A stretch of DNA of 40,247 nt from Desulfuromonadales bacterium (GCA_035620395.1 DASPGW010000130.1:1-40247), one strand, 5' to 3'. Numbered from the stretch's first letter, positions 27,854-40,247 are shown. Program-made: numbers and translations. The notes: generated by a model from the sequence alone, not told the origin.

Positions 27854-27911
27854 CCCGGCCGGGGAAAATGCTCGTGCCTCGGGGCCCATCACCAATTACA
27901 CGGAATTATTC

Positions 27912-29231
27912 ATGCTGCCAGTTGTTGCTATCGTCGGTCGTCCGAATGTGGGCAAATCGACCCTGTTTAATCGTATATTCGGTCGTCGCAAGGCCATCGT
28001 CGAGGATATCCCCGGGGTCACCCGCGACCGCAACTATGCCGAGGTTACCCGGTTTGACAACCCTTTCACGCTGATCGATACGGGTGGGTTCGAACCGGTC
28101 AGCGAAGAGCGCCTGCTGGTGCAGATGCGCGAGCAGTCCCAGTTGGCGGTGGAAGAGGCCGATGTCATCCTGTTCGTTGTCGACGTCCAGCAGGGGCTCA
28201 CCCCCTCCGATATCGAGGTGGCCGGCATGCTGCGCCGCGTTTCCAAGCCGGTCCTCTACGTCGTGAACAAGGTTGATGGTGACCGGCAAGAGGGAGGGCT
28301 GCCCGAATTCTATGCGCTGGGGGTGGAAGTCGTCTATCCGGTTTCCGCCGAGCATGGCCGCGGCATCGACGATCTGATGGACGCAGTGCTGGCTCTGCTT
28401 CCGCCGGCACCGGCACCGGTGGAATCCGGTGAGGAGATCCGCCTGGCCGTAGTCGGCCGTCCCAATGTGGGCAAGTCGTCGCTGGTCAACCGCCTGCTCG
28501 GCTTCGAGCGGATGGTAGCCAATCCCCAGGCCGGTACCACACGCGACAGCATCGATACCCCCTTCACCTACAACCGCAAACGCTATGTGCTGATCGATAC
28601 CGCCGGCATCCGCCGCAAGGGGAAGGTCAGCCAGAAGCTGGAAAAGTACAGTGTCGTTCAGGCGCTCAAGGCGATGGATCGCGCCGACGTCGTGCTGGTG
28701 GTGATCGATGCCGAGGAGGGAGTCACCGACCAGGACGTGACCGTGGCCGGCTACGCCTACGAAAAGGGGCGGGCTGTCATTCTGGTGGTCAACAAGTGGG
28801 ACCGTCTCACCAAGGACAATGCCACTCTCGGCAAATACGTTGAAGAGTTGCGCCGCACCTTCAAGTATCTGCCGTTTGCGCCGATCCTCTTCGTCTCGGC
28901 ACTGACCGGGCAGCGCGTCAACAAAATCATGACAGAGGTCGAAAAGGTAGCTCAGGAGTATGTCAGAAGGATTCCCACGCCTCAGTTGAACAAGGTGCTC
29001 AGCGAGGCGGTCAAAGACCACCAGCCTCCCGTCTTTCAGGGAAAACGCCTGAAGTTTTTCTATGTTACCCAAGACGGCATCCGGCCGCCTAGTTTTGTGA
29101 TTTTCGTCAACCGCGCTGAAGGTGTCCATTTTTCCTATGAGCGCTATTTGGGCAACAAGTTGCGGGAAGCTTTCGGTTTTACGGGAACCCCTCTGCGGCT
29201 TTATTTTAAGGATCGGGAGCGTCAGGCGTAG
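27912..29231 (+). CDS. der: GTPase Der (EngA), double-GTPase ribosome assembly factor
   Basis: A 439-residue protein with two tandem GTPase domains. The first has G1 [16 protein letters not shown] (residues about 8-23) and the second has [16 protein letters not shown] (about residue 183). A C-terminal KH-like domain follows ([23 protein letters not shown]). Der acts in 50S subunit assembly. The ATG at 27912 is chosen because [17 protein letters not shown] is the family start; upstream in-frame sequence overlaps era without similarity. The 58-base gap to era suggests one operon rnc-radical SAM-era-der. Confidence 0.96.
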
Positions 29232-29339: not shown

Positions 29340-30656
29340 ATGAGTCTTGTCGGAAATCTCGAAGACCTGGGCCTGGGGGACATTCTCCAGATCGTTAGTC
29401 TCAGTCGCAAATCGGGTGTGCTTTCTCTGTATGGTCGGGGTCGTGAGGGCCGGATAACCTTCCAGAACGGCCAGGTCATACAAGCGACATCCAGCTCCTT
29501 TCGCGAGAATCTGGGCGATCTGCTGTTGCGCAAGGGTCTTGTCGATATCGAAACCCTCAGGCAGGCCCTCAGCCTCCAACGGCAGAGCGTCGGGCCGCAA
29601 CGCATCTGCTCCATTCTGGCGGAGCACTTCGGCGTGTCTTTGCCGGCCATGGACGCGGTCGTCAAGGAACAGGTCGAAAGGATCATCTACAGCTTCTTCA
29701 ACTGGACGGAAGGAACCTTTTCTTTCGACGTCGGAGACCAGGATGAACTCACAGCCACCCGGTTCAGCCCCCTTCAGCACATGCTGGAGCAGGGGGTGAA
29801 TCCGCAGTGGCTGGCCATGGAGGGGAGCCGGCTCCTCGATGAAAAACGGCACCGCGGCGAATCCTTCGAGGAGATTCCGGAGGAGCCGGCTTACGCTACG
29901 GACAAGTTACTCGGCCACCTGCATGTTGCGCCCGTCGCCTACATCGCGCCGGCGCTTCCGCCAGAAATTACCGCGTCACGCCCCGTTCCGCAGTTGGGTG
30001 AGGGTGTCCCGGTCTGTCAGCGTCTGGCTGGGGAGGCGGCCAGTCGGCCGGCTGCACCCCTGTACGATATCGGCGCCGAGTTGCTGCGCGAACTCGGAGA
30101 TACGGATGTAGCCGCACGCGGCAAGGGACCGCAGTCTCCCGGTTTGCACCTGTTGCGCGGGATGTTGCAGGAGCTCAACAACCCGGCGCTGGGTGGCGAG
30201 ATCATTCTGCTGGTCCTGCGTTTTGCCAGCGAATGGATGAATCGGGCGGTCATATTCCTGGTCAAGGAAAAGGATATCGTCGGTCTGGGACAGTTCGGGC
30301 TCGATTCTTCAGGAGAAATGGCCGACGCCCGGATCCGGCGCATGAAGATTCCGCGCAACGAGGAATCCGTATTCACCAAGGCACTCAACGAAATGTTGCC
30401 GATGAAGCTCCGTCCCGAACCGGGCCAATGGGATAACTACCTGAAAAAACAGTTGGGTGGCGACTTGCCGGAGCAAATTTTTCTCGGACCCATCATCAGC
30501 GAGGGAACGGTCGTTGCTATCCTGTACGGCGACAATTTCCCCGATAAAAAGCCGATCGGCGATACCGAAGCGTTGGAAATCTTTCTTTCCCAGGCCGGAC
30601 TGGCGATGGAAAAAGCGCTTCTCGAACGCCGCCTGAGAGAAAGAGACGCTGTCTAG
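29340..30656 (+). CDS. DUF4388 (PATAN-like) protein with a C-terminal GAF-like region
   Basis: A 438-residue cytoplasmic protein that opens the chemosensory operon. Residues 1-100 form a DUF4388 domain (SLVGNLEDLGLGDILQIVSLSRKSGVL ... GRITFQNGQVIQA). Domains of this kind occur in PATAN-type regulators linked to pili and motility signalling in deltaproteobacteria and cyanobacteria. The middle (about 165-275) looks disordered and Pro/Ala-rich. Residues about 280-435 resemble a GAF/sensor fold (LNNPALGGEIILLVLRFASEWMNRAVIFLVKEKDIVGLGQFG ... ILYGDNFPDKKP) and end in a short helical tail. No DNA-binding or catalytic motif is seen. It probably acts as a sensor or scaffold, by inference. Confidence 0.78.
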   Translation: MSLVGNLEDLGLGDILQIVSLSRKSGVLSLYGRGREGRITFQNGQVIQATSSSFRENLGDLLLRKGLVDIETLRQALSLQRQSVGPQRICSILAEHFGVSLPAMDAVVKEQVERIIYSFFNWTEGTFSFDVGDQDELTATRFSPLQHMLEQGVNPQWLAMEGSRLLDEKRHRGESFEEIPEEPAYATDKLLGHLHVAPVAYIAPALPPEITASRPVPQLGEGVPVCQRLAGEAASRPAAPLYDIGAELLRELGDTDVAARGKGPQSPGLHLLRGMLQELNNPALGGEIILLVLRFASEWMNRAVIFLVKEKDIVGLGQFGLDSSGEMADARIRRMKIPRNEESVFTKALNEMLPMKLRPEPGQWDNYLKKQLGGDLPEQIFLGPIISEGTVVAILYGDNFPDKKPIGDTEALEIFLSQAGLAMEKALLERRLRERDAV

Positions 30657-30674
30657 CCGGGGGAGCAAAATCTC

Positions 30675-31052
30675 GTGTCAAAAAAAATCCTGATTGCCGA
30701 AGATTCGCCGACCATGCGTTCCCTGATTGTTTCGACCATCGCCGCTCTGGGGGATTTCGAAATCGTCGAGGCAGCCAATGGCTTCGAAGCGCTGCGCATT
30801 CTCCCTCGTGAAAAGGTCGATCTGGTAATTACGGATATCAACATGCCGGACATCAATGGTCTGGAACTGGTGAGTTTCATCAAGGGAAATGCGAACTACA
30901 AGACCACCCCGTTGTTCATCATCAGTACCGAGGGGAGCGAGCGGGACCGCGAAAAGGGTTTGTCTCTCGGGGCTGATGCTTATTTGACCAAACCTTTTTC
31001 GCCACAGGAACTGCAGTCTCTCATCGTGCGTTTTCTCGGTCAGGAGGCGTAA
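30675..31052 (+). CDS. CheY-like single-domain response regulator
   Basis: A 125-residue receiver domain with no output domain. The acidic pair is Glu9-Asp10 in IAEDSPTMR, the phospho-acceptor is Asp54 in LVITDINMPDING, and the conserved Lys is in YLTKPFSPQ. The GTG start at 30675 follows a GGGGGAG ribosome binding site. It ends one base before cheA, whose GTG follows immediately, so it is a likely direct CheA target. Confidence 0.9.
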   Translation: MSKKILIAEDSPTMRSLIVSTIAALGDFEIVEAANGFEALRILPREKVDLVITDINMPDINGLELVSFIKGNANYKTTPLFIISTEGSERDREKGLSLGADAYLTKPFSPQELQSLIVRFLGQEA

Positions 31053-33086
31053 GTGGCGGAGCGGCCCATCTCGCGCGCAATCAAGGAATTTCTCGGTGAG
31101 GCCGAGGAGATCATCGAGAAGCTCAATCTCGACCTGGTAACGTTCGCCGACGGCAATGAAAGCGGTGAGGTCGACCCGGAGTTGCTCAACAGTATTTTCC
31201 GTGGCGCCCATTCGCTCAAGGGCATCTCCGGAATGTTCGGTTTCGATGACATTTCCACCCTGGCCCACCATATGGAAAATCTCCTCGACCGTCTGCGTCT
31301 CGGCAAGGTAGCGCTGAGCGGGATTCTGGTCGAGGTTTTGTTTGATGCCCTGGAAACCTTGTCGCGTCTTGTCCACGGCAAGGGCGAAACCGAGGAATAT
31401 TCTCTCGATCTGGCGCCGGTCCTGACTCGCATCGAAGGGGTTCTGAACGGCGCGGCGGAGGGGAAAGAAAATCTGCTGGCAGGGCTGAACATCAATCCTG
31501 CCATACTTAGTGTTCTGACGGAGTACGAGGAGCATCGCCTGCTGGATTGTTTCAAGAAGGGGCGCAACATCCAGAGTGTAAAGTTCAGTTTCAATCTCGC
31601 CAGCTTCGATCAGGACCTGGCCGAGATCACCGATATTCTTAAGAAAAAGGGTGAAGTGATCAGTACTCTGCCTTGCGCCGGGGAGTTTGCTGACCGGATC
31701 GGCTTTCAACTCCTCTATGGCACATCTGCGACGGTCGGCGAGATTCTTGCGGCTCTTGGCCGTGATGATGCCGTGGTTGATCTGCTCGGCGAGAAGGCCG
31801 TGGCGGCAACGCCCCGGCCGAAGGAAGAAACTTTTGCGACTGAACCCGCAGGAGAAGGACAGGAGGGGGGCGCCACCTCGATGCGGTCGATCAGCCGCAC
31901 GGTCAGGGTCGACATCGACAAGCTTGATTCGTTGATGAACGTGGTCGGCGAACTGGTGCTCTCGAAGGGGGCGATCGCTGCAGTCACCGAAAAGGTCCGG
32001 GCCGGGGGGAATCTCGAGATGGCGGTTGAGCTGCAGAAGGCCGTCCGGGTGCTCGAGCGCCGGCTCGATGAGCTGCAGAAAGGGGTCATGGAGGTGCGCA
32101 TGGTCCCGGTCGGCCAGCTTTTCGAAAAGATGGTCCGTATTGTTCGGCGGGTGGCCGGCGAACATGGCAAGAAAGTCGCTATCGATATCCGCGGCGCTGA
32201 TACCGAACTGGACAAGCTCATCATGGAGGATCTGTCCGACCCTCTGATGCACATCATCCGTAATGCCATCGATCATGGTATCGAGCCCCCGGATGAGCGC
32301 CTGGCCGCCGGCAAGCCCGAGAAGGGAACGATTGCCCTTTGGGCCTCGCAGAAGGGGAACCACGTCGTCATCGAAGTGCGGGATGACGGCCGCGGCGTCG
32401 ATCCTGAAAAGGTCCGCCGCAAGGCGGTGCAGAAAGGCCTGATTGCCGAGGGGACCGAGCTTTCACGCGACGGGACCTATGATCTCCTTTTCTTGCCTGG
32501 TTTTTCCACCCGGGATGAGGTCAGCGACCTCTCAGGGCGCGGCGTCGGGATGGATGTGGTCAAAAACAACATCTCTGCCCTTTCCGGGATGATCGAGATG
32601 GACAGTCGCCCCGGTGAAGGGACCACGCTGGCTATCACCCTGCCCATTACCCTGGCGATCATCAAGGCGCTGATTGTTCGCGTCTGCGGCAAGACCTACG
32701 CTATTCCCATCAATGCAGTCATGGAGACGTTGATGGTCGAGACGGCGAGCGTGCGCACGATTGAACGGCGGGAGGTCATCGAACTGCGGCAAAGTACCCT
32801 GCCGCTTTTGCGTCTCGAAAATATCTTCAAGCTGCCGGTCAGTTCCCGTCGGGACGGCCGTATTTTCGTGGCGGTTGTCGGGTTGGCGGAGAAAAAACTC
32901 GGGATCGTCGTCGATGAACTGCTCGGCCAACAGGATATGGTCATCAAGTCGCTCGGTAGTGCCCTTTCCTTTGTCCGCGGCATTGCCGGTGCCGCCGATC
33001 TGGGCAACCAGAAGACCATTCTCGTGCTCGACGTCGGGGGCCTGATGAGCGAAGCGCTGCGCGGGGAATCGGCTTTCTATGTATGA
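31053..33086 (+). CDS. cheA: Chemotaxis histidine kinase CheA
   Basis: A 677-residue soluble histidine kinase. The Hpt domain (residues 1-105) carries the phosphorylated His53 in RGAHSLKGISGMFGF. A P2-like segment (about 160-245) follows, then the dimerisation domain from about residue 277, then the ATPase with N box HIIRNAIDHGIEPPDERL (about 395), G1 DDGRGVD, and the G2 region GFSTRDEVSDLSGRGVGMDVVK. A CheW-like domain ends the protein (about 530-677). There is no receiver at the C-terminus. The last 8 bases overlap the ATPase gene. It should phosphorylate one or both CheY-like proteins and CheB of this operon. Confidence 0.95.
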   Translation: MAERPISRAIKEFLGEAEEIIEKLNLDLVTFADGNESGEVDPELLNSIFRGAHSLKGISGMFGFDDISTLAHHMENLLDRLRLGKVALSGILVEVLFDALETLSRLVHGKGETEEYSLDLAPVLTRIEGVLNGAAEGKENLLAGLNINPAILSVLTEYEEHRLLDCFKKGRNIQSVKFSFNLASFDQDLAEITDILKKKGEVISTLPCAGEFADRIGFQLLYGTSATVGEILAALGRDDAVVDLLGEKAVAATPRPKEETFATEPAGEGQEGGATSMRSISRTVRVDIDKLDSLMNVVGELVLSKGAIAAVTEKVRAGGNLEMAVELQKAVRVLERRLDELQKGVMEVRMVPVGQLFEKMVRIVRRVAGEHGKKVAIDIRGADTELDKLIMEDLSDPLMHIIRNAIDHGIEPPDERLAAGKPEKGTIALWASQKGNHVVIEVRDDGRGVDPEKVRRKAVQKGLIAEGTELSRDGTYDLLFLPGFSTRDEVSDLSGRGVGMDVVKNNISALSGMIEMDSRPGEGTTLAITLPITLAIIKALIVRVCGKTYAIPINAVMETLMVETASVRTIERREVIELRQSTLPLLRLENIFKLPVSSRRDGRIFVAVVGLAEKKLGIVVDELLGQQDMVIKSLGSALSFVRGIAGAADLGNQKTILVLDVGGLMSEALRGESAFYV

Positions 33087-33885
33087 GGATTTTTTCGGTC
33101 TGAGCGAAAGGCCGTTCAGCAAGACGCCCGACCCGCGGTTTCTCTACTTCAGCCGGATACACCGGGAGGCGCTCGCTCGTCTCATCTATGCCGTCGAAGA
33201 ACGGGATCTGGTTCTGCTCATCGGCGAAATAGGCTGCGGCAAGACTACGCTGTCCCGGGCATTGATGGATGAACTCGATGAGCGCTATCGGATCATTCTC
33301 ATCATCAATCCCCGGCTTACCCCGATGGAATTTCTCCGGGCACTGGCGATAAGGTTGGGGGTGGCGGAGCCGTCCCGCCTGAAAACCGATCTGCTCGAAC
33401 AGATCGGCGGCGAACTGTACCGGCTCTACGAAGAAGGGGTCTGTCCGGTTCTCATCGTCGATGAGGCACAGCTTGTTCCGCACAAGGAGACCTTTGACGA
33501 AATCAGGCTGCTGACCAATTTTCAACTCGACGACCGCAATCTGCTGAGCGTCGTGCTGGTAGGTCAACCCGAACTTCGCAAACGTCTCGCGCACCGCGCT
33601 TACGAGCCCTTGCGGCAGCGCATCGGCATGCAGTGTGATCTCAGGCCCCTTGATCTGGTGGAAACGGCCGAGTATCTCGATTACCGCCTGCAGGTCGCCG
33701 GTGGGACTGCCGGCCTTTTCCTGCCGCCCGCCGTCGAACGGATATACCAGTATTCCGGCGGCATCCCGCGCAAGATCAATCACGCTGCGGCCCTTGCCCT
33801 GCTCGAAAGTTTCGGCCGCGAGGTCCGCAGGATCGATGCTTCCATCCTCGATGCAGTCATGAGTGAACTCGACCTGACCGCCTGA
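33079..33885 (+). CDS. ExeA/GspA-like AAA ATPase inside the che operon
   Basis: A 268-residue P-loop ATPase of the ExeA type. It starts YEDFFGLSERPFSKTPDPRFLYFSRIHREAL, typical of this family. Walker A is GEIGCGKTTL (residues about 49-58) and Walker B is VLIVDEAQ (about 127-134), followed by the sensor-like VLVGQPELRKRL. ExeA proteins of type II secretion have a periplasmic peptidoglycan-binding domain and a membrane segment; neither is present, so this is a cytoplasmic stand-alone ATPase. Its ATG overlaps cheA by 8 bases, which argues for a role in the same pathway. Its partner is unknown. Confidence 0.85.
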   Translation: MYEDFFGLSERPFSKTPDPRFLYFSRIHREALARLIYAVEERDLVLLIGEIGCGKTTLSRALMDELDERYRIILIINPRLTPMEFLRALAIRLGVAEPSRLKTDLLEQIGGELYRLYEEGVCPVLIVDEAQLVPHKETFDEIRLLTNFQLDDRNLLSVVLVGQPELRKRLAHRAYEPLRQRIGMQCDLRPLDLVETAEYLDYRLQVAGGTAGLFLPPAVERIYQYSGGIPRKINHAAALALLESFGREVRRIDASILDAVMSELDLTA

Positions 33886-33906
33886 GCCCTGCACAGGAAA
33901 CGGAAT

Positions 33907-34623
33907 ATGATGGATCTGGCAGAAATTCGCAAAAAAGCCAAAACTCGACCGAAATCGGGCGGGCAGGCATCGATCGCCGAGACGAAGTCTTCCCCCCGTG
34001 CTGTCGTCTCCATCCAGGGGGCTCCGGCAGAGCAGGGATCTCCGCCTCCGGTCATGCCGCTTTCCGCCATCCAGCCGCTGCCGGGCCATGAGGATCCGCT
34101 GGAGGCTCTTTTCAACTTTCGACCCGATGTCGCTCTCGCCTCCGAAGAGAGCTACCTGCAAACTTTGCGGGGGCAGGATGAGCAGAAGGCCGAGGTTCTT
34201 TGCGAATGGCTGACCTTTCGCCTGGGCAGCGAAGAATACGCTCTCGATATCGCCGGCGTCAGCGAAATCATCAAGCTCCGTGAAATTACCGATATCCCGC
34301 GTGTGCCGGAGTTCATTCTGGGAATCATCTCGCTGCGCGGAATCATTGTCCCGATATTCGATTTAAAAAAACGGCTCAAACTCGGAGTCAGTGAACTGAC
34401 GCCGGCTTCCCGCATCATCGTCTGCCAATGGGGTGAGCGCTCCGCCGGACTGTTGGTCGACAGCATTTCCCAGGTGGTTCGGATTCCTGCCGGCGGGGTC
34501 GAATCCCCACCCGCCGTTCTCTCCGGAGTCGATCGCGAACTGCTGAACGGGGTTGGGCGGATTCAGGGTCGGATGCTGATCCTGCTCGACCTGGCGAATG
34601 TTCTGAATGCAGAACTCAACTGA
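33907..34623 (+). CDS. CheW-like coupling protein with a long N-terminal extension
   Basis: A 238-residue protein. The last 140 residues form a CheW domain (LTFRLGSEEYALDIAGVSEIIK ... IPRVPEFILGIISLRGIIVPIFDLKKRL), which in chemosensory arrays links receptors to CheA. The first 95 residues are Pro/Ser/Ala-rich, begin with a basic helical stretch (LAEIRKKAKTRPKSG) and look disordered. The stop of this gene is followed within 24 bases by the second receiver gene. A tail like this could bind another operon product, by inference only. Confidence 0.9.
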   Translation: MMDLAEIRKKAKTRPKSGGQASIAETKSSPRAVVSIQGAPAEQGSPPPVMPLSAIQPLPGHEDPLEALFNFRPDVALASEESYLQTLRGQDEQKAEVLCEWLTFRLGSEEYALDIAGVSEIIKLREITDIPRVPEFILGIISLRGIIVPIFDLKKRLKLGVSELTPASRIIVCQWGERSAGLLVDSISQVVRIPAGGVESPPAVLSGVDRELLNGVGRIQGRMLILLDLANVLNAELN

Positions 34624-34646
34624 TGCCTCAGGAAAGGAGTCATTCG

Positions 34647-35018
34647 ATGCCCAAGAAAAAAATTCTGGTGGTCGAAGACGAGGAGAGTCTGCTCAAACTG
34701 GAGAGCATTCTGCTGACGTCGAAGGGATACGAAGTCAGGGGGGTGCCCAACGGACAGGCGGCACTCGATGCCATTGCCGAGGAACAGCCTGATCTGGTGC
34801 TGCTCGACATCATGCTCCCGGAAATCGATGGATTCGAGGTCTGCCGCCGGATCAAGAGCGATCCGGCTACCCGGGATATCCCGGTGGTCATGCTGACCGC
34901 CAAAAAGACCCGTGATGATATGGCGAGAGGGGAAAAGGTCGGTGCCGACTGGTATATCACCAAGCCCTTCAAATCAGCCATGGTGATCGAAACCATCCAG
35001 AGGTTTCTTGTCAAATGA
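34647..35018 (+). CDS. Second CheY-like response regulator
   Basis: A 123-residue receiver-only protein. The acidic pocket is in LVVEDEESLL, the phospho-acceptor is Asp54 in LVLLDIMLPEIDG, and the Lys is in YITKPFKS. The ATG at 34647 is chosen because an AGGAAAGGAG ribosome binding site lies just upstream; an earlier ATG at 34623 overlaps the CheW stop and would add eight non-family residues. Its stop overlaps the next CheW start by four bases (ATGA). It resembles PilH/PhoB-type receivers more than flagellar CheY. Confidence 0.92.
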   Translation: MPKKKILVVEDEESLLKLESILLTSKGYEVRGVPNGQAALDAIAEEQPDLVLLDIMLPEIDGFEVCRRIKSDPATRDIPVVMLTAKKTRDDMARGEKVGADWYITKPFKSAMVIETIQRFLVK

Positions 35019-35551
35019 GTATAGAGCGTGAGCAACAGTCTGTTTCCGGAGCTGCTCGGGAAGGGGTCCGGCAGGAGATTCAACTGGCCTGTTTCCGCAT
35101 CGGCACCGAGATGTACGCTCTCGACATCATGCGGATCAGGGAGATCATCCGTCCGCAGCGGTTGACTCCCGTACCCAAGGCGCCACCCTTCATCGAAGGG
35201 GTCATCAACCTTCGCGGTGCCGTCGTTCCGGTGGTCGATCTGCGCAAGCGTTTCGAGCAGCCCGCCGCCGGCTCTGAACGCCGGACGCGTATATTGATTT
35301 GTTCCCTGGCCGGCAAGGTTATCGGCCTGATGGTGGACGAGGTCGCTGAAGTCCGCCGTTATACCCGGCAGGAAATTCAGCCTTCGCCCCAATTTCTTCG
35401 AGGGCGCGGATCCGAGTTCTTTCTCGGGGTCTGCCGGCGTGAGGACCAACTGGTGATGCTGATCGATCTGGAAAAGATTCTTTCGTCCGGAGAGCGGATC
35501 GATCTTGAAAGCATCCAGAAATTGCAGGGCGAAGCGATCACCACGGCCTGA
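35015..35551 (+). CDS. Second CheW-like coupling protein
   Basis: A 178-residue CheW protein with a short N-terminal tail (about 25 residues) and a full CheW domain (IQLACFRIGTEMYALDIMRIREIIRPQRLTPVPKAPPFIEGVINLRGAVVPVVDLRKRF). Two CheW genes in one operon could couple two receptor groups to the same CheA. It is translationally coupled to the preceding receiver by an ATGA overlap. Confidence 0.93.
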   Translation: MSIEREQQSVSGAAREGVRQEIQLACFRIGTEMYALDIMRIREIIRPQRLTPVPKAPPFIEGVINLRGAVVPVVDLRKRFEQPAAGSERRTRILICSLAGKVIGLMVDEVAEVRRYTRQEIQPSPQFLRGRGSEFFLGVCRREDQLVMLIDLEKILSSGERIDLESIQKLQGEAITTA

Positions 35552-35600
35552 AGTTGTTTCCTTTGCCGCTGTTACCGATTTTGATTGATGCGAGGTTTTG

Positions 35601-36521
35601 ATGATTGCCAGCTGTCCGGCTTGCACTGCCCGTTTTCGTCTTGACCGTCAACGCCTCGGGGGAAAAAGGATCACCCTGCGTTGCAGTCGCTGCCACCAGG
35701 TTTTCAAGATGGAAGTCGCGGTACCTTCGTCAGCTGCCGGCCCTTACCGTGTTCTGGTAGCGCACAGTGACGAAAGTCTTTGCACGACCCTCGGCGAGAT
35801 TCTCGCCAGGGACGGTTTTACCTTTCAGATATGCCATAACGGGCATGAGGCATTGCGGGCGATGGAAGCTGCTCCACCCGAGGTTGCCCTCATCGATGTG
35901 GCCTTGCCCGGCCTTTTCGCCTTTGAACTGGTCGACAAGGTGCGCAACCGTCCTGCCCTCAAAGAGGTCAAGATTCTACTGCTTTCCTCGGTCTACAACA
36001 AGATGGCCTACAAGCGGATGCCCACTTCGCTTTACGGGGCGGACGACTACATCGAGAAGCACCACATTCCTGACGACCTCGTCCCGAAAATCAACAGCCT
36101 CATCACCCATGCCAAGCCGCTGAGAAAACGACAGGTTCAGCCCCGGGAGGAAGTTGTGGCCGGCAAGCTGTTGGAGCCGCAGGAAGCTGCCGCCGAGGGC
36201 AAGGAGTACTTCGAGGAAATCAACATGCTGATCCGCTCGGCCGAGGAGCGGGAGATGGCGGCCGCTACTTCCCTGGAAGCGCAGGAAAATGCCCGGCGTC
36301 TGGCGCGAAGCATCGTCACTGATATTGCCCTTTACAACCAGGAGCGGGTCGAGGAAGGGATACGCACAGGGCGGTTTCATGAACTCCTGGAGATGGAGAT
36401 CGCCGAGGGAAGGCGGCTGTTTGCCGAACGTGTCGGTTCCTCGGTGCATGCTCAGGAGGATTTTCTGCAGACGGCCTTTGCGGCCCTTATTGAGCGCCGC
36501 CGGAAAGAGCTTCAGCTCTGA
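35601..36521 (+). CDS. Zinc-ribbon protein with a modified receiver domain
   Basis: A 306-residue three-part protein. Residues 1-38 form an MJ0042-type zinc ribbon (Cys5, Cys8, Cys28, Cys31). Residues about 48-170 form a receiver domain with phospho-acceptor-like Asp99 in VALIDVALPG. The usual acidic pair after strand 1 is replaced by His-Ser (VLVAHSDESL), so phosphorylation may be weak or absent. The rest (about 190-306) is predicted helical and charged (VEEGIRTGRFHELLEMEIAEGRRLF). The start is ATG 35601, three bases inside a possible TTG start. It lies 49 bases after the second CheW. The fold assignment is good; the function is unknown. Confidence 0.82.
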   Translation: MIASCPACTARFRLDRQRLGGKRITLRCSRCHQVFKMEVAVPSSAAGPYRVLVAHSDESLCTTLGEILARDGFTFQICHNGHEALRAMEAAPPEVALIDVALPGLFAFELVDKVRNRPALKEVKILLLSSVYNKMAYKRMPTSLYGADDYIEKHHIPDDLVPKINSLITHAKPLRKRQVQPREEVVAGKLLEPQEAAAEGKEYFEEINMLIRSAEEREMAAATSLEAQENARRLARSIVTDIALYNQERVEEGIRTGRFHELLEMEIAEGRRLFAERVGSSVHAQEDFLQTAFAALIERRRKELQL

Positions 36522-36544
36522 ACGGCGGCCCGGACGATTTATCA

Positions 36545-38557
36545 GTGGAAGAAAGAGAACAGATTCATCGAATGCTCCTGTCCCTTCAGGAAGAAGAACG
36601 CATGCAAGGGCTCAAGGCCTTGGGGCGCCACGGTGTCGAAACCGACCTGGGCCTGGTTTGTCAGGCTCTGGGCGATGAGAGCTGGCGCGTCCGCAAGGAG
36701 GCTGTGCAACTTTTTCTCGAGATGCCGCGGGCCAGCGAGCTGGCTGGCGAGGTGATCGAGCTACTGCACGCACAAGAAAACGCGGGCCTGCGCAACGCTG
36801 CCGTCGAGATTCTGGTGCGACTCGGCTCGCAGGCGGTCCCGTTTCTGCTCGAAGAGCTTTCCTGCAGCGATCGCGACGTACGCAAATTCGTTCTCGATAT
36901 CCTGGGTGACATCGGTGATGAGAGCTGCGCCCGGTGGATGCTGCCGGCACTCTCAGACCCGGACGAAAATGTCCGTTCCGCTGCGGCGGAAAATCTGGGT
37001 AAACTATGTGCCGCCGAAGCTGTGCCGATGCTTCTCGATGCCATGGACCATGCCGACCTCTGGTTGCGCTTTACCATATTGGAGGCCCTGGCCCGTATTG
37101 GCGAGGCGGTCCCCGTCGCCAGGCTGCTTGAATTTTCGGACCAGAAATTGTTGCGGAAAGCCCTCTTCGACTGTCTCGGGCGAATCGGCGGCATAGACGC
37201 GGTTCCTGTACTCATCTGCGGGCTGGCCGACGACATGCGCAACGTCAGGGAGGCAGCCATCGTCGCTCTGGACCGGATTGCCGCATCCTTGCCCGATGCA
37301 ATCGACGAGGTCCTGTCCGGACTCGCCGGCACTCCGGCTGCCGAAGCGGTGGCGAGTGCACTGGAATGTTCCGACCCTGCCATTGGCCAGGCAGCGGTGC
37401 GACTTCTGCGCGGGACGGGTGACGTGCGGTTTGCGCCGCAGCTGCTGGCTCTGTTCGAAAATGAGCTTTTGCGTGAGGAGGCCGCAGCCGCCCTGGTCGT
37501 CATGGGGTGTCCGGCCACCTGCTCCCTGCTGGAGTTATGGCCGACCGCCAGCAGTCGAACACGGGTCTATCTCGCTTATCTCGTCGGCGAGTCGCGTTGT
37601 GTCGATGGCCTGGCACTGCTGTGTTCCGGCTTGAAATACGGGGATTCAGAGCTGCAACTCGTCTCCGCCCAGGCGCTTGGCAAACTCGGCGAGACCGCTG
37701 CTATAGACCCTCTGACGGAAACCCTGTGCCGTGCGCGGGATGAGGTTCGCGAAGTGACCACGCAGGCGCTTTGCCGTCTGAGCGAGACGCATCCGCAGGA
37801 AGTTCTCCAAAGGCTTCGACCCCTGCAGGCTGGCGACGATGCCGAATTGCGCATGCAGGTCATTACGATCTTCGGCCAGTTGGAAAGCCCCGAGGTCGAG
37901 AGTTGTCTCGCTTTCGCCGTGAAGGATGAATCCCCGCTGGTGCGGCGGGCGGCGGTGCGGGCCTTCGAGAGACGCTCTGGAGAAAATCGTCTCCCGACGC
38001 TGATGCTGGCGTTGACGGACGAGGACGCCGAAGTCCGCCGCCTGGCGGCCGAATCGCTCGGCATGACAGCGGACAGCCAGGCGACTGCCCCTCTGGAACT
38101 CGCCCTGCAGGATGAAGATATCTGGGTACGGGCTGCCGCTGTCCGCTCCCTGGGCCGGCTGGGCACGGCCGATGTTTTTGCCCCGATTTGCCGGGCGCTG
38201 CAGGACCCCGTCGGCCTGGTGGCGATTGCCGCATTGGAAGCCCTGGCCGGACTCGACGTCTGGCGGGCTTGTCCGGCGATGGTTCAGGCTCTGCAGCACG
38301 CTGACGAAGAGGTGGTCAATGTGGCGTTAAATCTGCTGGCTGCAAGCGGGCAACGGGACTGGTTGCCCGCAGCCGTCGAGCCGCTGCTCAACCATCGGCA
38401 TTGGGAGGTGCGCAGCGCGTTTGTCCGCACCCTGGCGTCTCTGGAAGGTCCCGCCTGCGCTCCCCTGCTCGAGGAGCGGCTACTGCTCGAGGGGGAAGAG
38501 TTGGTGCGTCAGCTCATTCAGGAGATCCTGAGCGAGCTGCGGGATTCGCGTGGATAG
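36545..38557 (+). CDS. Large HEAT-repeat protein of the chemosensory operon
   Basis: A 670-residue soluble protein made almost entirely of about 20 HEAT/PBS-lyase-like repeats of 30 residues, with the recurring pattern of alternate Ala/Leu helices, D-x-x-V-R turns and LG-x-x-G pairs (for example DRDVRKFVLDILGDIGDESC and DEDIWVRAAAVRSLGRLGT). No enzyme motif, signal peptide or membrane segment is present. Such repeats form protein-binding solenoids. A GTG at 36545 starts it 23 bases after the zinc-ribbon gene; an ATG at 36572 is possible. It overlaps cheR by 8 bases, so it is firmly part of the operon. A HEAT-repeat protein accompanies one chemosensory system of Myxococcus, from memory. Confidence 0.85.
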   Translation: MEEREQIHRMLLSLQEEERMQGLKALGRHGVETDLGLVCQALGDESWRVRKEAVQLFLEMPRASELAGEVIELLHAQENAGLRNAAVEILVRLGSQAVPFLLEELSCSDRDVRKFVLDILGDIGDESCARWMLPALSDPDENVRSAAAENLGKLCAAEAVPMLLDAMDHADLWLRFTILEALARIGEAVPVARLLEFSDQKLLRKALFDCLGRIGGIDAVPVLICGLADDMRNVREAAIVALDRIAASLPDAIDEVLSGLAGTPAAEAVASALECSDPAIGQAAVRLLRGTGDVRFAPQLLALFENELLREEAAAALVVMGCPATCSLLELWPTASSRTRVYLAYLVGESRCVDGLALLCSGLKYGDSELQLVSAQALGKLGETAAIDPLTETLCRARDEVREVTTQALCRLSETHPQEVLQRLRPLQAGDDAELRMQVITIFGQLESPEVESCLAFAVKDESPLVRRAAVRAFERRSGENRLPTLMLALTDEDAEVRRLAAESLGMTADSQATAPLELALQDEDIWVRAAAVRSLGRLGTADVFAPICRALQDPVGLVAIAALEALAGLDVWRACPAMVQALQHADEEVVNVALNLLAASGQRDWLPAAVEPLLNHRHWEVRSAFVRTLASLEGPACAPLLEERLLLEGEELVRQLIQEILSELRDSRG

Positions 38558-39437
38558 CCGACCGATGCTCTTCTTCGCTCCCGAGATTCCGATGAGTAAC
38601 GAGGAGTTCCGTCTGCTGCGGGATTTTGTCTACCAACACTGCGGACTCCATTTCAACGAGGAGTCGAAGTACCTGCTGGAAAAGCGCCTCGGCAAGCGCC
38701 TCCAGCACCACCGACTGAAGAATTTCAAGGACTATTACTACCTTCTGCGCTATGGTCAGCAGAAGGAGCAGGAACTCACCGAAGTCATCGACGTCCTTAC
38801 CACCAACGAAACCTATTTCTTTCGGGAGGAGTTCCAGCTCAAGACCTTTACCCAGGAGATTCTTCCGGAGATCCGGGCGCGCAAGGAGAAAGCCGGCGAC
38901 CGGCGACTGCGGATCTGGAGTGCCGGCTGCTCGACTGGCGAGGAGCCTTATACCATCGCCATGCTGCTACTCGATATGCCTGCCTTCCGGGACTGGCAGA
39001 TCGATATCATCGGCACCGACATCAGCCAGAAGGTTTTGCAGGCGGCGCGCAAGGGAGTTTACGGCAGTGCCTCTTTCCGGGCCACCGACTCCTCCTATCT
39101 GCAGCGCTATTTTGTTGAAGCTGAGGATAAATACCGGGTTGCCGACCAGGTCAAAAGCCTGGTGACGATCAGTCATCTCAACCTCTTCGATACCCCCCGG
39201 GTGGCTCTGCTGGGAAAAATGGATGTGGTTTTTTGTCGCAACGTCATCATCTATTTCGACCTGCCGGCGAAAAAAAGGGTCGTAGAGAGTTTCTACCAGC
39301 GACTGCGGCCGGAGGGTTTTCTGCTGCTCGGCCATTCAGAGTCGTTGATGAACATCAGCAACGCCTTCGTCCTGCGCCACTACGTTCATGACATGGTCTA
39401 TCAGCGTCCCGAGCTCGCCGCGCCGGAGGGGTTATGA
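38550..39437 (+). CDS. cheR: Chemoreceptor methyltransferase CheR
   Basis: A 295-residue S-adenosylmethionine-dependent methyltransferase that methylates glutamates of chemoreceptors. The N-terminal helical domain (FRLLRDFVYQHCGLHFNEESKYLLEKRLGKRL) and the SAM-binding motif IWSAGCSTGEEPYTIAML (about residues 119-136) are clear, followed by VVFCRNVIIYFD. The GTG at 38550 overlaps the HEAT gene; ATGs at 38565 and 38592 are alternatives, and I favour one of the first two because FAPEIPMSNEEF reads like a family start. Presence of cheR and cheB implies that methylated receptors exist elsewhere in the genome. Confidence 0.93.
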   Translation: MDSRPMLFFAPEIPMSNEEFRLLRDFVYQHCGLHFNEESKYLLEKRLGKRLQHHRLKNFKDYYYLLRYGQQKEQELTEVIDVLTTNETYFFREEFQLKTFTQEILPEIRARKEKAGDRRLRIWSAGCSTGEEPYTIAMLLLDMPAFRDWQIDIIGTDISQKVLQAARKGVYGSASFRATDSSYLQRYFVEAEDKYRVADQVKSLVTISHLNLFDTPRVALLGKMDVVFCRNVIIYFDLPAKKRVVESFYQRLRPEGFLLLGHSESLMNISNAFVLRHYVHDMVYQRPELAAPEGL

Positions 39438-40247
39438 ACAGTCTGGTGCGGGTGCTGGTGGTGGATGATTCGGCCTACAATAGGCGAACCATCATTCAAA
39501 TGCTGGAGTCGCTGCCGGCAGTGGAGGTCATCGGATATGCCTGCGACGGTGAGGAAGCGTTGCGCAAGGTCATCGATCTGAAGCCGGACCTGGTCACGCT
39601 CGACCTCGAAATGCCGCGCATGGACGGCTTCACCTTCCTGCGGATCGTCATGCAGAGCCGGCCGACGCCCGTCATCGTTGTTTCAGCCCGCTCCGAGGAT
39701 GCGAATGTTTTCAAGGCTCTGGAGTTCGGCGCCGTCGAATTCGTTGCCAAGCCTTCAGCCCGGATTTCTCCGGAACTGTTCAACATCCGTGATGACCTGC
39801 TGCATAAGGTGCGCGAAATCGCCCGGACGGATATGAACAAGGTGCTGAAACGGTCCGTGCTGCAGCGGTCGCTGCCTGGTCGTCCGCCCGCTCGGGTTGC
39901 GCCGTCTGCCAGAGCGGTGTCGGAGTACCATTTGGAACAGGTGGTGATCGGCGCGTCGACGGGAGGGCCGCCTGCCCTGCAGGCCATTTTCTCGGCGATC
40001 CAGCGGCCCATCCCGGTTGCCTTTGCCGTAACCCAGCATATGCCGCCAGGATTTACCCGGGCCTTCGCCGAGCGCCTGAATAAGTGTTCCGCTCTGGAAA
40101 TTCGGGAAGCCCGTTCAGGTGACATGGTACGAGCGGGACAGGTCCTCATCGCGCCCGGCGGCCGCAATCTTGTTTTTCGCCGCAGCGGCGCCGACGTTGT
40201 CGCCCAGGTGCTCGAACCGAGCCCCGACCAGCGCTATGTTCCTTCGG
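39434..40247 (+). CDS. cheB: Chemoreceptor methylesterase CheB (3' end missing)
   Basis: The first 271 residues of CheB; the window ends before the stop. A receiver domain (Asp57 in LVTLDLEMPRMDG) leads through a linker rich in basic residues to the methylesterase domain with Ser175 (IGASTGGPPALQ) and His202 (TQHMPPGFTRAF). It removes methyl groups from receptors, and in some species deamidates them, and is activated by CheA phosphorylation. The ATG overlaps the cheR stop (ATGA). Confidence 0.94.
   Translation, partial: MNSLVRVLVVDDSAYNRRTIIQMLESLPAVEVIGYACDGEEALRKVIDLKPDLVTLDLEMPRMDGFTFLRIVMQSRPTPVIVVSARSEDANVFKALEFGAVEFVAKPSARISPELFNIRDDLLHKVREIARTDMNKVLKRSVLQRSLPGRPPARVAPSARAVSEYHLEQVVIGASTGGPPALQAIFSAIQRPIPVAFAVTQHMPPGFTRAFAERLNKCSALEIREARSGDMVRAGQVLIAPGGRNLVFRRSGADVVAQVLEPSPDQRYVPS

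Follow-up and report, generated by a model that had tools for sequence, protein, structure and literature searches.

Two groups of chemosensory (che) gene clusters without a gene for a methyl-accepting chemotaxis protein (MCP) are known in Geobacter. One of them, group β, corresponds to cluster 5 of Geobacter sulfurreducens and is conserved in delta-proteobacteria (Tran et al. 2008, PMC2577667). In G. sulfurreducens, a transposon sequencing (Tn-Seq) screen on electrodes identified the genes GSU2220 (CheW, esnB), GSU2221 (ATPase) and GSU2222 (CheA, esnC) (Chan et al. 2017, PMC5585712); the esn genes belong to the electrode sensing network (Esn). Deletions of esnA–D are defective on electrodes and normal with Fe(III) oxide, and EsnA is a GAF-domain MCP without a periplasmic domain that gives two-hybrid signals with EsnB and EsnC (PMC5585712). 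EsnD produces cyclic di-GMP (c-di-GMP) and antagonizes signalling by cyclic GMP-AMP (cGAMP) (PMC6456294), and an insertion in esnB mimics esnD in a cGAMP reporter (PMC8835794). The β cluster and EsnA homologues are also present in five Desulfuromonas strains (PMC8235581). Here, a che operon of a Desulfuromonadales bacterium is compared with these systems. It lies at the end of a stretch of 40,247 nucleotides (GCA_035620395.1, DASPGW010000130.1:1-40247), referred to as the window, which is one complete contig of a draft genome (3.3 Mb, 313 contigs, 96% complete).

The operon is a new member of a described system, since the descriptions of group β (Tran et al. 2008) and of Esn (Chan et al. 2017) fit, including the order CheA-ATPase-CheW. 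It is almost certainly the group β/Esn chemosensory core of Desulfuromonadia. The best overall explanation (probability roughly 0.8) is an Esn core with its EsnA receptor encoded in trans, which acts in surface-attachment signalling and has two putative local outputs. Eleven genes on the + strand are tightly packed between 29340 and 40246. Their order, as proposed in the initial annotation, was confirmed by open reading frames, Pfam and, for CheB, NCBIfam. The genes, and two domains discussed below, are:

29340–30656, + strand: DUF4388 protein of 438 residues (DUF4388 at residues 5–170, Pfam E 1e-27) with a C-terminal GAF-like domain
29502–29672, + strand: MshEN-like segment inside DUF4388, residues 55–111 (match to Thermus thermophilus PilF, profile E 6e-9)
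30675–31052, + strand: first CheY-like single-domain receiver (Pfam E 1e-27) with the usual acidic pair, Asp, Ser/Thr and Lys
31053–33086, + strand: CheA, the EsnC orthologue, with Hpt, dimerization, HATPase and CheW domains (Pfam; alignment A1); the phospho-acceptor His lies in the Hpt motif FRGAHSLKG
33079–33885, + strand: stand-alone AAA ATPase similar to ExeA and PEP-CTERM ATPases (AAA_22, E 2e-24), the GSU2221 orthologue by position
33907–34623, + strand: CheW (residues 101–235, E 1e-35) with an N-terminal tail of ~100 residues, adjoining the ATPase and the EsnB orthologue by position
34623–35018, + strand: second CheY-like single-domain receiver (Pfam E 6e-29)
35015–35551, + strand: second CheW (Pfam E 9e-41)
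35598–36521, + strand: zinc ribbon and receiver (Pfam Zn_ribbon_4 and REC; NCBIfam) with a C-terminal RomX-like domain
36273–36509, + strand: RomX-like domain, residues 226–304 (PDB entry 8zna; profile E 6.9e-20, single-sequence phmmer E 6.7e-11)
36545–38557, + strand: HEAT-repeat protein of 670 residues (HEAT_2, E 1e-71)
38550–39437, + strand: CheR methyltransferase (CheR_N and CheR; CheR E 4e-59)
39434–40246, + strand: CheB methylesterase (NCBIfam CheB, E 1e-78), truncated by the contig end and full length in relatives

As in the group β clusters (PMC2577667), cheA, cheW, cheR and cheB are present and an mcp gene is absent from the cluster (Pfam, NCBIfam). The delta-proteobacterial conservation is also shared; the gene arrangement matches that of Geobacteraceae members and the CheA proteins are orthologous. 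The accessory genes have no assigned function in that description, whereas the present analysis assigns RomX and MshEN-like domains. The likeness to EsnABCD (PMC5585712) consists of the same CheA-ATPase-CheW block (GSU2222-2221-2220), matched by order and annotation, and of a GAF-MCP receptor encoded in trans. The electrode phenotype, in contrast, is that of G. sulfurreducens mutants. The initial annotation regarded the operon as the best candidate for an undescribed system. This view has to be abandoned in favour of the group β cluster, with CheW, ATPase and CheA corresponding to esnB, GSU2221 and esnC.

Conservation of the operon was analysed in 40 regions (20 from Desulfuromonadales and 20 from further Desulfuromonadia), in which genes were identified by BLAST comparison with those of the window. 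The same gene order is found in these regions, Geobacter sp. AOG1 among them, and almost everywhere the core consists of the same genes. In 39 of the 40 regions the cluster is located between der and leuS, the 40th region being cut; lptE and holA are present downstream together with leuS. The arrangement is thus conserved far beyond chance. Complete clusters of relatives additionally carry a gene for a coiled-coil GAF protein and a further CheY between cheB and leuS. No orthologue match for this GAF gene was obtained in the genome of the window organism, which may reflect an assembly gap. At E≤1e-150, 196 of the 277 Desulfuromonadia genomes analysed have an orthologous CheA. A re-check of 28 genomes raised the number of carriers to 208, several of the sub-threshold cases being split alignments or fragments; the re-check behind this rise covered only genomes with an EsnA-type MCP and without a CheA call. 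Poor conservation of the accessory genes, or flagellar genes with an MCP directly downstream, had been named as observations that would refute the initial reading of the operon. In the relatives' regions, the accessory genes are conserved with cheA and no such downstream genes are seen.

The window contains no MCP, as initially annotated: a search with PF00015 over the whole genome gave no match on the contig of the operon. Elsewhere in this genome, seven MCPs exceed the Pfam cut-off and a further one is truncated by a contig end. The latter fits the description of EsnA, a GAF-domain MCP without a periplasmic domain that is encoded apart from the cluster:

contig C218, 15921–17087: start of an EsnA-type MCP (two transmembrane helices, GAF, MCP), cut by the contig end before the tip

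Of the 277 genomes, 200 have a relative of this receptor, nearly always just one. The GAF domain gives a gapless match of 166 residues to an MCP fragment of known structure (PDB entry 3oov, E 3e-57). In Geobacter sp. AOG1 the EsnA-type protein is the only GAF-MCP recognized, two weak matches being left out. Receptor and CheA occur together in 192 genomes, both are missing in 61 and 24 genomes are discordant (agreement 253/277, phi coefficient 0.78). Before the re-check of CheA, the numbers were 180/16/20/61 (both, CheA alone, receptor alone, neither; phi 0.68). As controls from the same 277 genomes, PilM and FliM gave phi values of 0.16 and −0.07 with CheA; none of these values is corrected for phylogeny. 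Very probably, the missing receptor is the EsnA-type MCP encoded in trans. An assignment of the MCP class from the arm length was dropped as unreliable, and the own copy ends before the tip. Three further cheA genes are present in the same genome (contigs C243, C226 and C41), each with an MCP on its contig.

On sequence grounds, the zinc-ribbon receiver ends in a stretch of 80 residues that is homologous to RomX, an apparently new assignment. The zinc ribbon has four invariant cysteines (alignment A2, 27 orthologues). The AlphaFold 2 model of the protein is fair (mean predicted local distance difference test score, pLDDT, 86.7); the Foldseek matches of this model are essentially receivers. In Myxococcus, nucleotide exchange on MglA, a GTPase of cell polarity, is promoted by RomX together with the response regulator RomR, and it is RomX that contacts MglA (PMC9481161, PMC7332107). 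Sequences of Geobacter and Pelobacter are among the RomR homologues (Keilberg 2012, PMC3441718). Among the papers listed by a literature search, none links RomX with Geobacter; the original RomX paper was outside the reach of this search. The likeness to the Frz system and RomR/RomX-MglA of M. xanthus (PMC3441718, PMC7332107, PMC9481161) is a CheA-type signalling system with a receiver/RomX/MglA module. The two differ in that the che operon of the window itself encodes the RomX-like domain as a fusion with a zinc-ribbon receiver, whereas the signal in Myxococcus reaches the polarity module via FrzX and FrzZ. MglA is present in 256 of the 277 genomes, including that of the window organism, and is 78–84% identical to the Myxococcus protein among the best matches listed. 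The matches bear out the MglA sequence used as the query.

Of 101 clusters, 58 have both the gene of the zinc-ribbon receiver and the GAF gene downstream and 41 have neither; each of the two genes occurs alone once. A phylogenetic test of this linkage had about four informative independent pairs, all agreeing (p 0.125). It is thus suggestive only that the RomX-like receiver and the GAF protein (for example locus L065, 13539–14381) work as a pair.

In cyanobacterial regulators, the DUF4388 domain is known as PATAN. PATAN regulators bind the pilus motor PilB1 in Synechocystis (PMC12288463, PMC9090330). With the regulators PixG and PixE, which are of the PATAN-REC type, the DUF4388 protein shares the connection of this domain to CheA-type signalling, and most orthologues also carry a receiver (REC). 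It differs from them by its C-terminal GAF-like domain and, in the window copy, by the missing REC: the central receiver of most orthologues is absent here (alignment A3). Short and long forms, without or with this receiver, alternate among the relatives. The best phmmer matches of DUF4388 are the N-domains of PilB, MshE and PilF in one register, each weak alone (E 0.008 to 1), and the match to NCBIfam NF053729 (E 1e-5) is below the cut-off of that model. Motif I of the window protein, NLGDLLLRKGLVDIETLRQALSLQ, fits the relaxed form of the 24-residue c-di-GMP motif of MshEN (PMC5013675), with a chance of 2e-4 per shuffled domain. MshEN has two such motifs (RLG...Q); motif II of the window is degenerate and lacks the Gly. 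Both motifs are found in 20 of 111 DUF4388 orthologues, so that c-di-GMP binding is possible for some of these proteins and unlikely to be general. The AlphaFold 2 model is fair (pLDDT 75.2) and its best Foldseek matches are GAF domains. The fold searches returned only receiver and GAF domains; the links to RomX and MshEN are derived from sequence.

From these domains and the published Esn work we infer the phosphotransfer routes and both local outputs. EsnA, with its two transmembrane helices, cytoplasmic GAF and MCP signalling domain, would form arrays with CheA and both CheW proteins and would be adapted by CheR and CheB. CheA would phosphorylate the CheY proteins as well as receivers encoded elsewhere, which in Geobacter presumably include the diguanylate cyclase EsnD, and this transfer would commit cells to surface-attached life. 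An output through c-di-GMP is somewhat favoured. CheA may also phosphorylate the RomX-like receiver. This protein may modulate an MglA-type GTPase, with effects on cell polarity and type IV pili; the other putative local output, the DUF4388/PATAN protein, may sense c-di-GMP or target the pilus motor. That phosphorylation by CheA switches the MglA exchange activity of a RomR-RomX-like fusion, with the DUF4388/PATAN protein coupling the signal to the pilus motor, is a tentative proposal. Overall, the operon probably serves surface-attachment signalling via c-di-GMP, possibly together with MglA and type IV pilus polarity.

Several observations weigh against this interpretation. The equivalence with GSU2220–2222 and GSU1704 is derived from the published locus order, descriptions and relatives and not from the G. 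sulfurreducens sequences. GSU1704 is annotated as an MCP of class 40H, the class published for EsnA, whereas the orthologues of the receptor of the window organism have long arms of ~210 residues, counted from the tip to the end. Some lineages (f2 genus g2, f8 genus g8 and f5 genus g34) have the cluster without an EsnA-type receptor. PilM was not found in the 96%-complete draft of the window organism. Furthermore, the gene of the RomX-like receiver is absent in 42 of the 101 clusters while the core persists. As some carriers of the cluster thus lack the zinc-ribbon/RomX gene, this receiver cannot be the only output.

The last point also bears on the alternative that the system mainly controls type IV pilus polarity, similar to Pil-Chp or Frz. 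Phosphorylated by CheA, the RomX-like receiver would then promote nucleotide exchange on MglA and thereby position or activate pili, and changes in c-di-GMP would be secondary. The RomX domain and the near-universal MglA are consistent with this, as are the PATAN/MshEN-like protein with the PATAN-PilB1 precedent and the genes pilC, pilS, pilQ and pilP, which were also Tn-Seq hits in the electrode screen (PMC5585712). However, co-occurrence of PilM with CheA is weak and the cluster has no pil gene, and we consider this alternative unlikely. The RomX and PATAN/MshEN-like domains lend indirect support to the type IV pilus output envisaged in the initial annotation, which stays conjectural. Control of extracellular matrix or exopolysaccharide independent of c-di-GMP (Dif-like) is improbable as well. 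It is suggested by the effect of cluster 5 mutations on the extracellular matrix in G. sulfurreducens, stated as an unpublished observation (PMC2577667), and by the relation of the ATPase to PEP-CTERM/exopolysaccharide-associated ATPases, but the statement on the mutants is unpublished only, no exopolysaccharide gene is in the cluster and the Esn mutants have been linked with the levels of c-di-GMP and cGAMP (PMC6456294, PMC8835794).

A flagellar chemotaxis cluster would have the same standard set of cheA, cheW, cheY, cheR and cheB. However, no flagellar gene was recognized nearby in the regions examined, and FliM is absent in the genome of the window organism and in 64 of the 208 CheA carriers. 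FliM shows no association with CheA (phi −0.07), and the flagellar assignment was rejected as extremely improbable. Within the cluster, no flagellar, pilus or mcp gene is present in these regions, in agreement with the earlier view of a non-flagellar che cluster with an alternative function, whose output is not encoded locally as pilus or flagellar genes.

Surface-attachment signalling by an Esn core is of interest since the Esn system decides electrode colonization by Geobacter; the parts studied so far are the CheW, the CheA, the receptor and one cyclase. This signalling core is already known. The RomX and MshEN-like domain assignments look new and may point to control of pili and cell polarity. 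An operon conserved throughout Desulfuromonadia thus combines a receiver bearing a RomX-like domain with a PATAN protein in which one segment resembles the pilus motor, and this makes the output directly testable. The CheA-RomX-MglA wiring known from Myxococcus may also exist in metal-reducing bacteria; if true, direct control of MglA would join surface or electrode sensing to pilus polarity.

The genes of the operon are separated by 18, 0, −8, 21, −1, −4, 46, 23, −8 and −4 bases, corresponding to five overlaps and a largest gap of 46 bases. The upstream neighbour der (27906–29231) is 108 bases away from the first gene. Scans for promoters and terminators in the window gave numbers no higher than chance. 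The truncated cheB (271 residues, open at its end) is explained by the window being a complete contig that ends there. The ATPase matches TIGR03015 with E 2e-67, below the equivalog cut-off of that model (NCBIfam).

Variation between the clusters is mostly limited to accessory genes. The CheA cluster occurs without an EsnA-type GAF-MCP in genomes G001, G021, G034, G007, G087 and G045. The apparent absence of cheB and one cheW in regions L082 and L083 means little, because the crude gene caller chose antisense frames there. In region L058 (G009, contig C46), cheA is full length except for an internal in-frame TAA, and the adjacent ATPase frame is split, due to either sequencing error or decay. 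In region L067 (G005) the ATPase, one CheW and the zinc-ribbon gene are lost and the downstream GAF gene and CheY are kept.

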